A stretch of DNA of 32,179 bases from Candidatus Poseidoniales archaeon. GTDB taxonomy: Archaea > Thermoplasmatota > Poseidoniia > Poseidoniales > Poseidoniaceae. The notes beneath the pieces were generated by a model that was given only the letters and a program-made list of their open reading frames with translations, was not told the origin of the DNA and ran no database searches. Below are positions 22,809 through 27,290 of this stretch, piece after piece. The DNA is taken from the NCBI GenBank assembly GCA_003602485.1, contig QQSD01000010.1, forward strand, positions 27,215 through 59,393, in the 5' to 3' direction. The position numbers were made by a program, and so were the translations under genes. How positions within the stretch are numbered: position 1 is the first letter of the stretch; each line of letters opens with the position of its first letter.

Positions 22809-23828
22809 TCATTCCACCTCAAAATATTCCAATAAGCGGCGGCATCGTTCTTTGGTGGCCAAGCTTGTCAATTGTACCACGACCCCCTGAGCTGGTTGCC
22901 CGTAGACAACGATGGAGCCGATGGGGGCAAGAAGATGAGCGTAAAGTGGCGCGAGGTCTTCTTCTCCTTCGACATGAATCAAGCAAGGTTCTTCCTCATC
23001 GATTGCTTTTTCAAGCGCCATGAGAAGCGATGGAGTCAATGTACCGGGTGGATTCTCAGCAGAGAGGCTGTGAGCGAAGGAACTGGCGTCAACCAGTTCA
23101 TGTTCAGGAAGTTGTGTTCGTTTTGTCTGTCCGTCAATCAGTGCAATGTCGGGAATGATGTCGATTTCTAGCATGGTTCGTACCGTCACATCTCCTACTG
23201 CAATCAACATGTTCTGGCCCAAAGAACGGTCTTCCAATGCAGCATACATCGCTATGTCCGGAGCATCTTCAGGACCTTCAAAGAGGGTTCCCATTGGCGT
23301 TTTGAGTTCTTGGTCCAGGCCCGGATGCATTAGCAATACATTCTGTGCCATGGTGGAACTTACCCAAGGATGGCCTTCTGTGTCGATTTTCCCATTGCGT
23401 ATTCGAGAAGAACTGATGATACCTCCACAATGATCTGCGAGATGCTCAACTTCGATGATATGCAAGGGTTGTAAGTTGTTGGCTTTTCGTAATACATTGA
23501 TGTGTTCGCATTGGCCACGTGTCTCTGGAGTAGCAACGATGCAGTCTGCGCTGGGATGTTCGGGTGCTGGACCCTGAGAGTCGTTGAGTTCAAACACAGT
23601 TCCACGCCGAGGCGCATGCTGTTCAATCCACTGCAAGAGGTGTTCGCGCCGTGTTTCAAAGGATTCGATATTGGCCGCTTTAGTATCTGCCATGCGATCG
23701 CTTGTAATATGAATCTCAAGATGAGCTGCTTGACGTTCAGCCGCACCGAGTAAGAGACGGTGCCCTGCATGAAAGCGATCAAAGGTGCCACCAACCAAAC
23801 ATCGGTGAAAGCGGTAGGCGTCCTCCAT
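22809..23828 (-). CDS. Fused phosphopantetheine adenylyltransferase and GTP-dependent dephospho-CoA kinase (DUF359)
   Basis: Probably carries out the last two steps of CoA synthesis in one protein. Residues 1-155 form an archaeal CoaD-type nucleotidyltransferase: GGTFDRFHAGH (13-23) is the (H/T)xGH motif region, and ISSSRIRNG near residue 140 is the second family motif. The C-terminal half matches DUF359, shown in archaea to be a GTP-dependent dephospho-CoA kinase: VGDVTVRTMLEIDI with PDIALIDGQTKR, then NPPGTLTPSL, VEGEEDLAPL and VVYGQPAQGVVVQ, in family order. Total length is 339 residues. The start is ATG at 23828; a TTG two codons earlier is less likely. It lies directly downstream of the structured gene-free stretch and is translationally coupled to the glycosyltransferase. 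Confidence 0.92.
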   Translation of the reverse strand: MEDAYRFHRCLVGGTFDRFHAGHRLLLGAAERQAAHLEIHITSDRMADTKAANIESFETRREHLLQWIEQHAPRRGTVFELNDSQGPAPEHPSADCIVATPETRGQCEHINVLRKANNLQPLHIIEVEHLADHCGGIISSSRIRNGKIDTEGHPWVSSTMAQNVLLMHPGLDQELKTPMGTLFEGPEDAPDIAMYAALEDRSLGQNMLIAVGDVTVRTMLEIDIIPDIALIDGQTKRTQLPEHELVDASSFAHSLSAENPPGTLTPSLLMALEKAIDEEEPCLIHVEGEEDLAPLYAHLLAPIGSIVVYGQPAQGVVVQLTSLATKERCRRLLEYFEVE

Positions 23829-24188
23829 GAACAACGGTTAGGACCAACAGCCTTTGAGGTCATCGCAACATGGAAGCATTGAGAAGAGGTTTTGGAAAAC
23901 TGTGCCCCGACACCTAACGGCCTCGTTCATCGTTTCCTCGGAGGCCTGACCCTCGGCATCGGGGCGTTCTGTCCGGTAGGGTGGTTGTCTTGAGGTCATC
24001 CTCTCGTCATCCAAGGACCCATAACCTACCGATGGTTTACCGCATTTGCACCGGGAATCACGCCCCGAAGGGTCATCCCAGTCTTCGATTTGCGGCCGTA
24101 CTCATGGTGTCAGACGTCATAGCAATGTTTCACAGTAGCTCAGCCCGATGTTGCAGGTACGGTAGCATCGGCTCAAGACGACTCTATA
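23829..24188. ncRNA. Gene-free stretch with nested inverted repeats; possible structured RNA
   Basis: No coding gene is credible here, yet the 360 bases contain many perfect inverted repeats. GCCCCGA 23904-23910 pairs with TCGGGGC 23959-23965, enclosing GGCCTC 23919-23924 with GAGGCC 23941-23946. CGGTAGG 23974-23980 pairs with CCTACCG 24025-24031. CGGGGCG 23960-23966 pairs with CGCCCCG 24061-24067, which competes with the first helix. GAGG 23992-23995 pairs with CCTC 24000-24003. AGCCCGATG 24142-24150 pairs with CATCGGCT 24166-24173 with one bulge. G+C content is higher than in the nearby A+T-rich gaps. The strand is undetermined. It could be a stable RNA (RNase P RNA and SRP RNA were considered, but their signature boxes were not found) or a long regulatory leader of the CoA gene. 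Confidence 0.5.
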
Positions 24189-24205
24189 TCACTTCATCGG
24201 TGATA
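24187..24205 (-). terminator. Hairpin spanning the stop of the 24189-26696 gene
   Basis: TATCAC (24187-24192) and GTGATA (24200-24205) form a perfect 6-base inverted repeat with a 7-base loop that includes the end of the reading frame. There is no T-tract, so its use as a terminator is uncertain. Confidence 0.3.
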
Positions 24206-26696
24206 CAGGGGGCATTCTATGGGCAAAACTTCTCCCAAACAGAACGCGCCCAATGGCTTCGTCACCGTGTTGCATGACACTAGGCCCAATTATTGGCCAT
24301 GATTCAATCGGTTGAACGAGCCATGCCCCGTCACCATGCGAGGATAAAATAGGGACAGGAAGTTGATGGTCACGGGCATAAATCGCCTCAAAGAGGTCCC
24401 GTAGCGGTAGTACACCAGGCCCTTCGGGCAACAAATGAACACCGATAAGTTCCTCGGCAGTTAATTGACACCCTTGGTGGCGAATTTCATGACCTGGGAA
24501 ACCGCACCGTTCACCTTCAGTCCGACCAAGAATGGCAAGCCACGGCATCGGATGTTGGCTCAACCAGACTCGCCCGGATGCCGTATTCAATTGATTCACA
24601 ATCCATTCGTTTCCGTAAGGTAGCCACCATGAACTCGGGAGTGAAGTCATGATTTGTCGTTGAAGTTCTGTCGCCCAAGGGAGATTTTGAAGGAGGGCAT
24701 CAACGCCTCGTGACCAAAGATGAAGCAGCGATGATTTTGGATGAATTCGCGCAGCCTTGAGACATGTATCCAAGCGGGTGTCCGTTGACTCATTTTTTGG
24801 TGAACCAAAGAGATGTTCAATGACTTCGACAGCCATGTAAGGCCTATCCAGCCAGGAAAGAAGAGCTTGGTCAAACAAATCACGGTAGGTTTCGTCAGCC
24901 AAATGGAGGCTGGCCACAAGGGCTGTTGCATACCATGGTGCGATGGGCGATTCTTCGAGTGCTTTGGCGAATGAAAGAGCCACTTTAGGCGCATGAGGAA
25001 GGTTTGCCTTGAGCCGTCGTAATGCGAGAGTTTGCCATTGAACTGTACCTTTCGCAATGGCTTCTGGAAGATCAACCAATTCAAGAGCATCAACCTTGAG
25101 CAAATCTGCCCATCCCTCTGGAAGGTCGGTGTGGATGCGCAACCATCGCTGAGCACGTTCACTTTCGGGCGAGGCAATCCATGCTGCCAACGGATGAGAT
25201 GATTCAAGTTCGTTTGCCATACGGGAATCTCCCTTAGGAAAGACATGCAAGCTACGGGAAAGTGCGTCCCCATGCCTTCCTTTTGGAAGTGGAGAGGTGT
25301 ATGTTGATGCCTGATTCAGTGTCAAAGGAGACAATAATTCAGCAGCATTGCTGGGCATGTATTCGCGAGGAGGAGAAGGTGATTGTGCAGGTGAAGAAGG
25401 TGAATTAAGGACAATAGGTAAGGAGATGTCACGACCAATTTGAGCATACACTTCTGCTAGATTTGGAGAGGTTGTGAGGTGCGTTGAGTTTCTCGATACC
25501 GAACGCCCTGTACCTCGCCGAGTCATGAAAATCCTGCATTTTGGGTGGAACGTTAGTCGGTGATGGAAGTCTTCATCTGGTTCATCGAAGGGCCAGTCGA
25601 TGACACACGGCCATTGAGAGTCTTGAACGAGATACAAAATGAGTGCCGATAAACCATTTACAGACATCCCATATGTATCGATGGTGCCTTCGTTGACTTC
25701 ATCAACGGACCAGTCAACGTCCCCAAAGTCGGAAAAGATATCTTTTCTCAGGGATTGAGGAAGTTTTGAAGTATTCTTGAGTAAGTCAGAGCTGATGGAT
25801 GTGTACATTGCTTCAATTCGGTCCGCTGACATCCTTGAATGGCGGAGACTCAACCATTGGCGAAGAAGAGGGATTGGAAGATGACGGTCTCGTCGCCCCT
25901 GTCCGTCGGTCAGGCAAATGGCTCGACTCCCCAAGGCCTCAACCACAAGGGAGCGGTCCAGTTCATGTGGCAAATGTGCAGTAATACCGCTGGGAGGAAA
26001 GTATTGCAGCGCCGTACCTGAAACTTGTCCGAGACAATGACTCCCATTGAGGAGGAACTGTGGTGGATGTTGAGGTTGCGAGGCGTTTGAGAACCATTGA
26101 CCTTCAATCAGAGTGGTCAATGGAGCCTGTTCGAGCACTTTTCCACGGGCTAGTCCGATCTTTGTAGGAGCGTTGCCAAAATCTGCGAGTGTGCCGGATG
26201 TGGTTGCTGAAGGTGGCGTCGTAGGAGAAAAATCATCCAACATATACCACTTGAGTTTGTCAACCGGGAATAAAATCCACGTCCCCCCTTGATTTCCTGT
26301 GGAAGTTTGCCCTTCGTGATTCATGGCATCTGGGATGAAAAAAAGTGAAGATGATGGAGGTTTGACATAACCAAGAAGCACGTTTGATGATTCGGATTGA
26401 ACAACCACCCCCTCGGTATTTGCAGGAATGACACTCACGTGACGCTTCAATTTCTCCAAGCCATCGTTTTCCAAGCGCTCAAGACCCGTTTGACTGAGAT
26501 ACATTGGGGCGTTTCGCAACCCCCCTGATTCATCACGAACAACATAGCCATGGGTACGCAGTTGCCGGCATGCAAGCGAGGCGTGCGGCATCCGCATGTC
26601 GAATTGCTTGGCGATTTCAGAAACCGTGCTCGGCCCTCTGCTCAACCAAAACAGGATCTTCCGGTGTGCTGCCGAACGAATGCTTCCAGACGGCAT
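24189..26696 (-). CDS. Large winged-helix protein with uncharacterised C-terminal region
   Basis: An 835-residue cytoplasmic protein with a DNA-binding N-terminus and no recognised domain beyond it. Residues about 9-85 form a MarR/ArsR-like winged helix: ILFWLSRGPSTVSEIAKQFD, the recognition helix around PHASLACRQLRTHGYVVR, and a wing leading to YLSQTGLERL. Residues 90-400 are mixed alpha/beta. A Pro/Ser-rich linker lies at about 420-450 (SPSSPAQSPSPP), and the C-terminal half is Leu/Ala-rich and helical, possibly with helical repeats (LALRRLKANLPHAPKVALSFAKAL). GAGGTGA eight bases upstream supports ATG at 26696; GTG at 26699 is the alternative. It is divergent from another winged-helix gene, and the shared gap has AGTTA repeats. 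A transcription regulator with a large sensing or scaffold region is the best guess. Confidence 0.75.
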   Translation of the reverse strand: MPSGSIRSAAHRKILFWLSRGPSTVSEIAKQFDMRMPHASLACRQLRTHGYVVRDESGGLRNAPMYLSQTGLERLENDGLEKLKRHVSVIPANTEGVVVQSESSNVLLGYVKPPSSSLFFIPDAMNHEGQTSTGNQGGTWILFPVDKLKWYMLDDFSPTTPPSATTSGTLADFGNAPTKIGLARGKVLEQAPLTTLIEGQWFSNASQPQHPPQFLLNGSHCLGQVSGTALQYFPPSGITAHLPHELDRSLVVEALGSRAICLTDGQGRRDRHLPIPLLRQWLSLRHSRMSADRIEAMYTSISSDLLKNTSKLPQSLRKDIFSDFGDVDWSVDEVNEGTIDTYGMSVNGLSALILYLVQDSQWPCVIDWPFDEPDEDFHHRLTFHPKCRIFMTRRGTGRSVSRNSTHLTTSPNLAEVYAQIGRDISLPIVLNSPSSPAQSPSPPREYMPSNAAELLSPLTLNQASTYTSPLPKGRHGDALSRSLHVFPKGDSRMANELESSHPLAAWIASPESERAQRWLRIHTDLPEGWADLLKVDALELVDLPEAIAKGTVQWQTLALRRLKANLPHAPKVALSFAKALEESPIAPWYATALVASLHLADETYRDLFDQALLSWLDRPYMAVEVIEHLFGSPKNESTDTRLDTCLKAARIHPKSSLLHLWSRGVDALLQNLPWATELQRQIMTSLPSSWWLPYGNEWIVNQLNTASGRVWLSQHPMPWLAILGRTEGERCGFPGHEIRHQGCQLTAEELIGVHLLPEGPGVLPLRDLFEAIYARDHQLPVPILSSHGDGAWLVQPIESWPIIGPSVMQHGDEAIGRVLFGRSFAHRMPPVSPMK

Positions 26697-26969
26697 CACC
26701 AGTCACCTCATCCTTAGCGTAATTTTCATGCTTGATAAATCCTACTCTTTTCAAGTTAATTAGTTACATTTAGTTAATGATTTCCACTCGAGAAGTGTTC
26801 ATTTACTTACTCGCCCCGCCCATGATGTAGAAATAACACCGATATTTTGTCATCAAGTGTAACCAAATCGTCAGTTGAGGGAGGAAGCATTATATCAGCG
26901 GCCTCGCTCCTGTAAACCAGCGGCACATAATCACTTGAGCCACCAATAAAAACGACAGGAGGAAAGAAC
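26697..26969. promoter_or_regulatory. A+T-rich divergent promoter region with AGTTA repeats
   Basis: This 273-base gap separates two divergent winged-helix genes. AGTTA occurs at 26754, 26762 and 26772, twice as AGTTAAT, inside an A+T-rich stretch, and could be a regulator-binding array. GGATTTATC on the minus strand (near 26733-26741) is a TATA candidate for the large gene, and CATTATATC (near 26889) is one for the small gene. An AGGAGGAAAG ribosome-binding site precedes the ATG at 26970. Confidence 0.4.
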
Positions 26970-27290
26970 ATGAAGACAACACGCATCCGTGAAAAAATCA
27001 AGAAATTTTTAGGCGACCGACCACGTAATACCGCTGAGATTTTGGAATACATCAACAGCACCATGCGTCATGGTACAACCAGCCAACAACTTGGCAACGT
27101 ACTCTCCAAAGACAAAGACATTGTCAAGGTTGGATACATCAAGCGCTCCGGGATCCTCTCTGGCGGCTACGATATTTGCGAGTGGGCCACTCGAAACTGG
27201 GTTTCCGAACATTGCCCAGAATGGATTGAAGGCACACCTATCATCGTCGATAGTGAAGGCAATTTCACTACCGGTACGACCAAACTCTGA
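26970..27290 (+). CDS. Small winged-helix DNA-binding protein
   Basis: The 106-residue protein has a helix-turn-helix layout: IREKIKKFLGDRPRNTAEIL (about 6-25), a second helix, then TSQQLGNVLSKDKDIVKVGYI as recognition helix and strand (about 37-57), and a glycine-rich wing (GILSGGYD). The remaining 40 residues are Trp-containing (EWATRNWVSEHCPEW) and of unknown role. A strong AGGAGGAAAG ribosome-binding site fixes the start. It is transcribed away from the large winged-helix gene, which suggests cross- or autoregulation, but no target is visible. It could equally be a nucleic-acid-binding factor that is not a specific repressor. Confidence 0.78.
   Translation: MKTTRIREKIKKFLGDRPRNTAEILEYINSTMRHGTTSQQLGNVLSKDKDIVKVGYIKRSGILSGGYDICEWATRNWVSEHCPEWIEGTPIIVDSEGNFTTGTTKL

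Follow-up and report, generated by a model that had tools for sequence, protein, structure and literature searches.

A probable HgcG/Pab40-type H/ACA guide RNA gene, divergent and rebuilt, upstream of coaD in Poseidoniales

Members of the Poseidoniales, an order of the phylum Thermoplasmatota, are abundant in the surface ocean. The window analysed here, the whole stretch of 32,179 nt from one such archaeon, contains a gene-free stretch (23829-24188) between two minus-strand genes, one at 24189-26699 and the other encoding a CoaD-DUF359 protein. What does this stretch encode, if anything? A sequence-only reading had described it as the longest gene-free stretch of the segment, holding at least five perfect inverted repeats and two helices that share one strand, and had suggested a switching or otherwise undescribed structured RNA. 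The description was accurate: no longer gap was seen in the ORF lists of the window, five 7-nt perfect inverted repeats (I5-I9) are present, and the two helices, 23904-23910/23959-23965 and 24061-24067/23960-23966, are exact.

The best explanation, which we hold with high confidence, is an RNA gene in its own right, whose product is an H/ACA guide RNA with four hairpins, an orthologue of HgcG/Pab40. This RNA is very likely to guide pseudouridylation of two or three positions in the ribosome core. The grounds are the structure, its conservation, the family link, complementarity to the targets, co-change in relatives, and the presence of genes for Nop10 and Cbf5 (DKCLD domain) in the same genome; from these we infer transcription, RNP assembly, and modification. 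The features of the locus are as follows.

24184..24199, minus strand: promoter-like motif read as BRE/TATA, with consensus CGATGnnTTCAAAA, spanning -35 to -22 relative to the RNA start
23900..24164, minus strand: very probable HgcG/Pab40-type H/ACA guide RNA gene with a length of 265 nt, the 5' end being approximate
24096..24162, minus strand: hairpin H1, K-turn-like, guide-like loops 24154-24148 and 24110-24102, stems covarying in 41 sequences, without ACA
24040..24095, minus strand: hairpin H2, guides 24091-24083 and 24049-24044, K-turn-like element 24075-24057, ACA missing; predicted unit for 2496
23970..24031, minus strand: hairpin H3, guides 24024-24016 and 23988-23981, ACA 23972-23970; best predicted target A-loop U2554/2555
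23901..23965, minus strand: hairpin H4, guides 23954-23947 and 23918-23915, ACA 23903-23901; predicted unit for U1915 (helix 69)
22809..23828, minus strand: CoaD-DUF359 gene (Pfam), likely ATG at 23828, immediately downstream of the RNA and outside it

The covariation check that had been proposed was run on a fold of 55 base pairs. Among the 18 sequences of alignment A1, 96.9% of the cells are paired and 21 pairs changed on both sides, against at most 43.1% and 6 pairs in slid controls. In alignment A2 (41 sequences, aligned to the model R1 described below and hence leaning to its structure), 94.2% of the cells are paired and 49 of the 55 pairs changed on both sides, against at most 49.2% and 27 pairs in the slid controls. 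Owing to G-U pairs, 955 of 986 cells pair when read on the minus strand and 878 when read on the plus strand, which places the RNA on the minus strand, and a plus-strand RNA was rejected on this ground. The fold comprises four covarying hairpins, and by eye every one of them carries a GA element that resembles a K-turn or a K-loop; repeats I6 and I9 form part of it, and I5, I7, and I8 lie outside. The distance between the ACA box and the pocket-closing pair, taken by eye on the fold, is 16 nt in H3 and 15 nt in H4, and the available text of PMC4652768 gives 14-16 nt as the rule for archaeal H/ACA RNAs. H3 and H4 thus combine pocket, K-turn or K-loop, and correctly spaced ACA, but not every unit carries an ACA box: it is absent on H2, and none was seen by eye after H1.

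The limits of the gene follow from abrupt edges of conservation, at 24164 and 23900 on the minus strand, where the 3' end reads GGGGCACAG, and the stretch scores 305.5 bits with R1, a model in which its own copy is included. Searches with a 376-base query around the gap gave matches in 34 of 59 genomes, its own genome counted. Across 40 upstream regions, column information is highest at -35 to -22, and we take the consensus found there to represent BRE and TATA box, as it sits where these are expected in archaea. The 16 nt past the 3' end of the RNA are T-rich (T fraction 0.40 versus 0.24 farther downstream), with TTT no more than 14 nt past the end in 25 of 41 sequences. A coaD motif lies 47-136 nt downstream of the RNA in all 40 Poseidoniales loci with enough sequence (one of the 41 was too short); the CoaD-DUF359 gene is a conserved neighbour and not part of the RNA. 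An element CGATGA...TCAAAGG (window 23872-23829, minus strand) resembles by eye the promoter motif of the RNA, and its position about 37 nt before the coaD ATG suggests that coaD mRNA is leaderless. On the other side, the 836-aa protein encoded directly upstream of the RNA gene (24189-26699, minus strand) has no Pfam match, and the window also encodes a DUF3860 protein (26970-27290, plus strand, E 2.6e-34).

At the gathering threshold, Rfam gave no match in the window. A sensitive scan of 23700-24300 matched RF00064 (HgcG) over its full length at 24143..23896 on the minus strand, with 23.4 bits (E 1.6e-4) against a gathering cut-off of 77 bits; none of 18 other Poseidoniales loci reaches the cut-off, three of them (L134, L136, and L137) matching at E<=0.01, and an RF00064 search of the whole genome of origin did not find the RNA at E<=0.001. 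Across the phylum, RF00064 was found in 57 of 292 genomes at E<=0.01 under stricter filters, once above the cut-off, and a locus from another family of the phylum (L031) scores 92.7 bits. None of these phylum-wide matches falls in f1 or f2, the two Poseidoniales families searched (f1, f2, f16, and the like are anonymous family labels); RF00064 matched 0 of 14 control genomes, which makes these controls uninformative on sensitivity. The model R1 was built from 18 Poseidoniaceae sequences only and run on 40 sources, with E-values that are rough. Of the best 30 RF00064 loci elsewhere in the phylum it picks up 28, at the same places and at E<=1e-6, missing L059 and L060, and it finds the RNA in 133 of 145 Poseidoniales genomes and all 21 genera, at one place per genome except for pieces in two (G003 and G321).

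On the strength of the 57 phylum genomes with RF00064 and the 28 loci recovered by R1, the RNA is best classed as a divergent, rebuilt member of the HgcG/Pab40 family, its homology traced through intermediates. The notion of an undescribed structured RNA therefore survives in part: the RNA is real, structured, and conserved with covariation, but its class is known, as HgcG matches in Rfam indicate. The strong match to a known family that would have told against novelty came by way of the intermediates, the window itself staying far below the Rfam cut-off, which left this RNA gene unannotated. Rfam also gave weak matches in the window, to toga_FSE, sR32, sR36, and PhotoRC-I, and one to SgrS in L133; all of these were treated as chance. 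No report of HgcG in Poseidoniales, Thermoplasmatota, or Marine Group II was found in a literature search that covered few subscription papers, and a search on sR-h45 found nothing.

Targets were sought in rRNA as uridines flanked by complements of both guide strands. Neither rRNA of the genome of origin was found by pattern; H2, H3, and H4 each match 23S rRNA best, and their three top sites lie in the 23S of G015 and of G073. The RNA stretch of G015 shares 98% identity with that of the window. E. coli numbering was obtained by alignment to E. coli 23S (L169). The top match of H4 is GUAAC[UA]UGACCCUC in helix 69, at E. coli 1915, with 4+8 = 12 perfect pairs. H2 best matches UUGC[UA]CUUCGAU in the peptidyl transferase centre, at E. 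coli 2496, and H3 best matches GGUUGU[UC]GCCCAU in the A-loop, at E. coli 2555, or 2554 if the right guide begins one base later. Null searches on 2000 random rRNA sets and with 2000 shuffled guides, respectively, reached the score of H4 in 0 and 0 cases, that of H2 in 5 and 11, that of H3 in 26 and 22, and that of H1, whose best rRNA target is ordinary, in 433 and 446. By these counts the predicted target is firm for H4 (U1915), good for H2 (2496), moderate for H3 (2554/2555), and unsupported for H1. For H3 we would prefer U2554 over U2555, because CAACC as the guide core places ACA at 15 nt; a lower-ranked second candidate in G015 is the site equal to U2586. The predicted pairing of H4 agrees with the guiding of the 1915-equivalent uridine by the last hairpin in HgcG/Pab40.

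Among the 41 sequences, H4 keeps GGGUCA and GUU in all and GUUA in 36 (the other five differ in the last base), and H2 keeps CGAAG followed by GCAA in all. An H3 guide deviates from GGGUC in eight, and the H3 core CAACC is kept in 32, with CTACC in six, CCACC in two, and one not parsed; the right guide of H3 reads CUACC or CCACC in L126, L127, L129, L131, L132, L135; L097, L136. In five f2 genomes with a changed H3 guide the A-loop itself is unchanged, and the site ranks 1 to 3 with low scores; in G057 the site equal to 2586 ranks first, and G045 has too little 23S for ranking. The H3 guide may be undergoing retargeting or decay within one family. Guide-like motifs of H1 occur in all 41 sequences of A2, and searches with them gave tentative leads: among seven 23S genes, a site at offset number 700-705 led or shared the lead in four, each of them from f2 (L162-L165), and stood outside the top six in the remaining three, and sites at 2599-2606 recur.

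Relatives provide natural tests of guide/target co-evolution, in a compensatory change at 2496 and in the loss of the 1915 guide together with its target base. The 2496 site is CUCCG in G064 against CUUCG in the other readable genomes, and the G064 guide has CGGAG in place of the common CGAAG; this compensatory change supports the predicted target of H2. Helix 69 was readable in 118 of 292 phylum genomes, with U at 1915 in 106 and C in 12. The latter are all ten readable f16 genomes (G072, G120, G123, G136, G142, G197, G226, G235, G244, and G261, the last with a U1915 copy besides its C1915 copy) and two f29 genomes (G109 and G113). All three HgcG loci found in f16 (G197, G221, and G244) lack the H4 motif and keep H2 and H3; in G197 and G244, C1915 stands in the same assembly as the H4-less RNA, and helix 69 of G221 was not readable. 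That the hairpin guiding 1915 is lost in a family without its target base supports the predicted target of H4. There are, however, contrary cases. The f5 RNAs (six checked, and others inspected besides) are without H4, yet the only readable f5 23S, that of G283, has U1915, and four genomes (G063, G091, G263, and G277; loci L036, L052, L055, and L059) have an intact 2496 site CUUCG but no recognisable H2 guide; in G097 (L054) the guide is only partial beside a CUUCG site.

Two further observations concern the architecture of these relatives. At the f16 loci L060, L091, and L092 another conserved hairpin replaces H4, CCC(A/G)(A/G)CA...UGUUGGG followed by UGACAGCG, and at L041 (G130, f5) the HgcG RNA apparently lies, by eye, directly downstream of tRNA genes.

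In the mechanism that we propose, L7Ae would bind the K-turns or K-loops and Cbf5-Nop10-Gar1 the stems and ACA boxes, each pocket would base-pair with the stretches of pre-23S rRNA that flank a single uridine, and Cbf5 would convert this uridine to pseudouridine. For H4 the modified uridine would be the equivalent of E. coli 1915 in helix 69, and for H2 that of 2496 in the peptidyl transferase centre; for H3 it would most likely be U2554 or U2555 in the A-loop.

Other explanations of the locus have to be weighed against this one. That the stretch is spacer DNA whose inverted repeats arose by chance, or a coding region missed in annotation, would agree with the 58-aa minus-strand ORF inside the stretch and with its folding energy, which the proposed thermodynamic check on both strands found unremarkable (z -0.32 on the minus strand and -1.56 on the plus strand); whole-stretch folding energy is uninformative here. 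We consider this explanation extremely improbable, given covariation beyond slid and shuffled controls, the strand asymmetry of pairing, and the occurrence of the RNA at a single place in almost all genomes of the order. A riboswitch or other cis-acting leader of coaD-DUF359, switching between alternative helices as the sequence-only reading had envisaged, would account for the position just upstream of coaD in all 40 Poseidoniales loci with enough sequence and for the perfect 7-bp alternative that the second helix offers in the window. Nevertheless, the helix 23904-23910/23959-23965 keeps all seven pairs in 17 of 18 aligned sequences, whereas the alternative 24061-24067/23960-23966 is fully formed in only two. 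Mutually exclusive helices are thus not conserved, and the switching leader was rejected. The RNA also has its own promoter-like motif at -35 to -22 and T-rich sequence past its ACA end, its loops match 23S rRNA, and no coaD motif occurs in the 400 nt (144 nt for one locus) that follow the 30 RF00064 loci from outside the order. A leader role is accordingly very improbable, and of the claimed relation to the CoaD-DUF359 gene it is position and strand that stand.

Within the guide RNA reading, it may be asked which hairpins still guide. In Poseidoniales the H2 ACA is found in 0 of 41 sequences (one has ATA; in L125 the search pattern caught a wrong GCAA, and the true site, located by eye, is also without ACA), whereas outside the order it stands at the expected distance in all 23 parsed loci (7 of 30 were not parsable). 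Together with the lack of an ACA seen by eye after H1, this would suit a scheme that leaves H4, and perhaps H3, as the only guiding units, with H1 and H2 serving as an rRNA-folding chaperone or having lost their function; chaperone roles for archaeal sRNPs are raised in the available part of PMC3608112. We judge this scheme unlikely, though worth keeping in mind. The H2 guides are kept in 41 of 41 sequences while the H2 stems vary freely, and for this reason pairing with the 2496 site seems to be still under selection; PMC4652768, in the portion available, names the Cbf5-ACA contact and leaves ACA-less units unsettled. By eye, H1 was seen neither in the f3 loci, which fall in the same class, nor in the phylum's other families; it appears to be a Poseidoniales-specific addition and may make up for the ACA box that H2 has lost. 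A composite unit, in which the ACA-less H2 works only with the abutting K-turn hairpin H1 and H1 replaces ACA as the RNP anchor, is a tentative proposal with rather low odds of being right. The arrangement raises the question of whether an ACA box can be dispensed with.

The guide RNA reading supplies a predicted guide for pseudouridines at the ribosome core in Poseidoniales. Judged from sequence comparison, the RNA appears to add to a known guide-RNA family a new member of altered structure, whose targets are well supported and whose first hairpin is unexplained. What is new here is its presence in Poseidoniales, the added 5' hairpin, the loss of ACA from the 2496 unit with guides intact, and a possible A-loop target for H3.

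For comparison with known systems, we take Haloferax Psi2621 to correspond to E. coli 2586 and yeast Psi2923 to E. coli 2554, and provisionally place P. abyssi U2588 at E. coli 2496 from its offset to other P. abyssi positions. According to the accessible portions of the literature, Pab40 guides P. abyssi 23S U2588 in vitro (PMC6138745); Pab40 and Afu4 each form, in vitro, P. abyssi Psi2016, which equals Haloferax 1956, Pf7 has three hairpins, and Haloferax HP1 could target 2621 (PMC2584109); L2016 is given as the target of Pab40.3 and L1932 as that of Pab40.2 (PMC4652768). The literature assigns 1915, and probably 2496, to Pab40. As in HgcG/Pab40/Pf7 of Thermococcales, the last unit would target the E. 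coli 1915 equivalent, and H2-H3-H4 align to consecutive hairpins of the Rfam model; unlike them, the Poseidoniales RNA adds H1, has an H2 without ACA, and is divergent (23.4 bits). H3, too, differs from its counterpart in Pab40, as it best fits the A-loop, whereas Pab40.2 targets L1932 in the text available from PMC4652768.

Haloferax HP2 and Archaeoglobus Af4.3 (Afu4) also target the 1915 equivalent, and HP1 is described as a homologue of Pf7 stem II, in the accessible text of PMC2584109 and PMC4652768. HP1 differs in targeting Psi2621, a site that is only a lower-ranked H3 candidate in the genus of the window. If the A-loop call of U2554 is right, H3 would hit the equivalent of yeast 2923, where Psi2923 depends on snR10 according to the part of PMC9045821 available; eukaryotic H/ACA architecture differs, and the two are likened by target site alone. 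Finally, Tan1 is an abundant 229-nt ncRNA of MG-II Thalassoarchaea with unknown function, as far as the accessible text of PMC5069720 describes it. By that description alone, it resembles the present RNA in coming from the same broad group (marine group II), in similar size, and in being structured, and the RNA described here offers a candidate identity for it.
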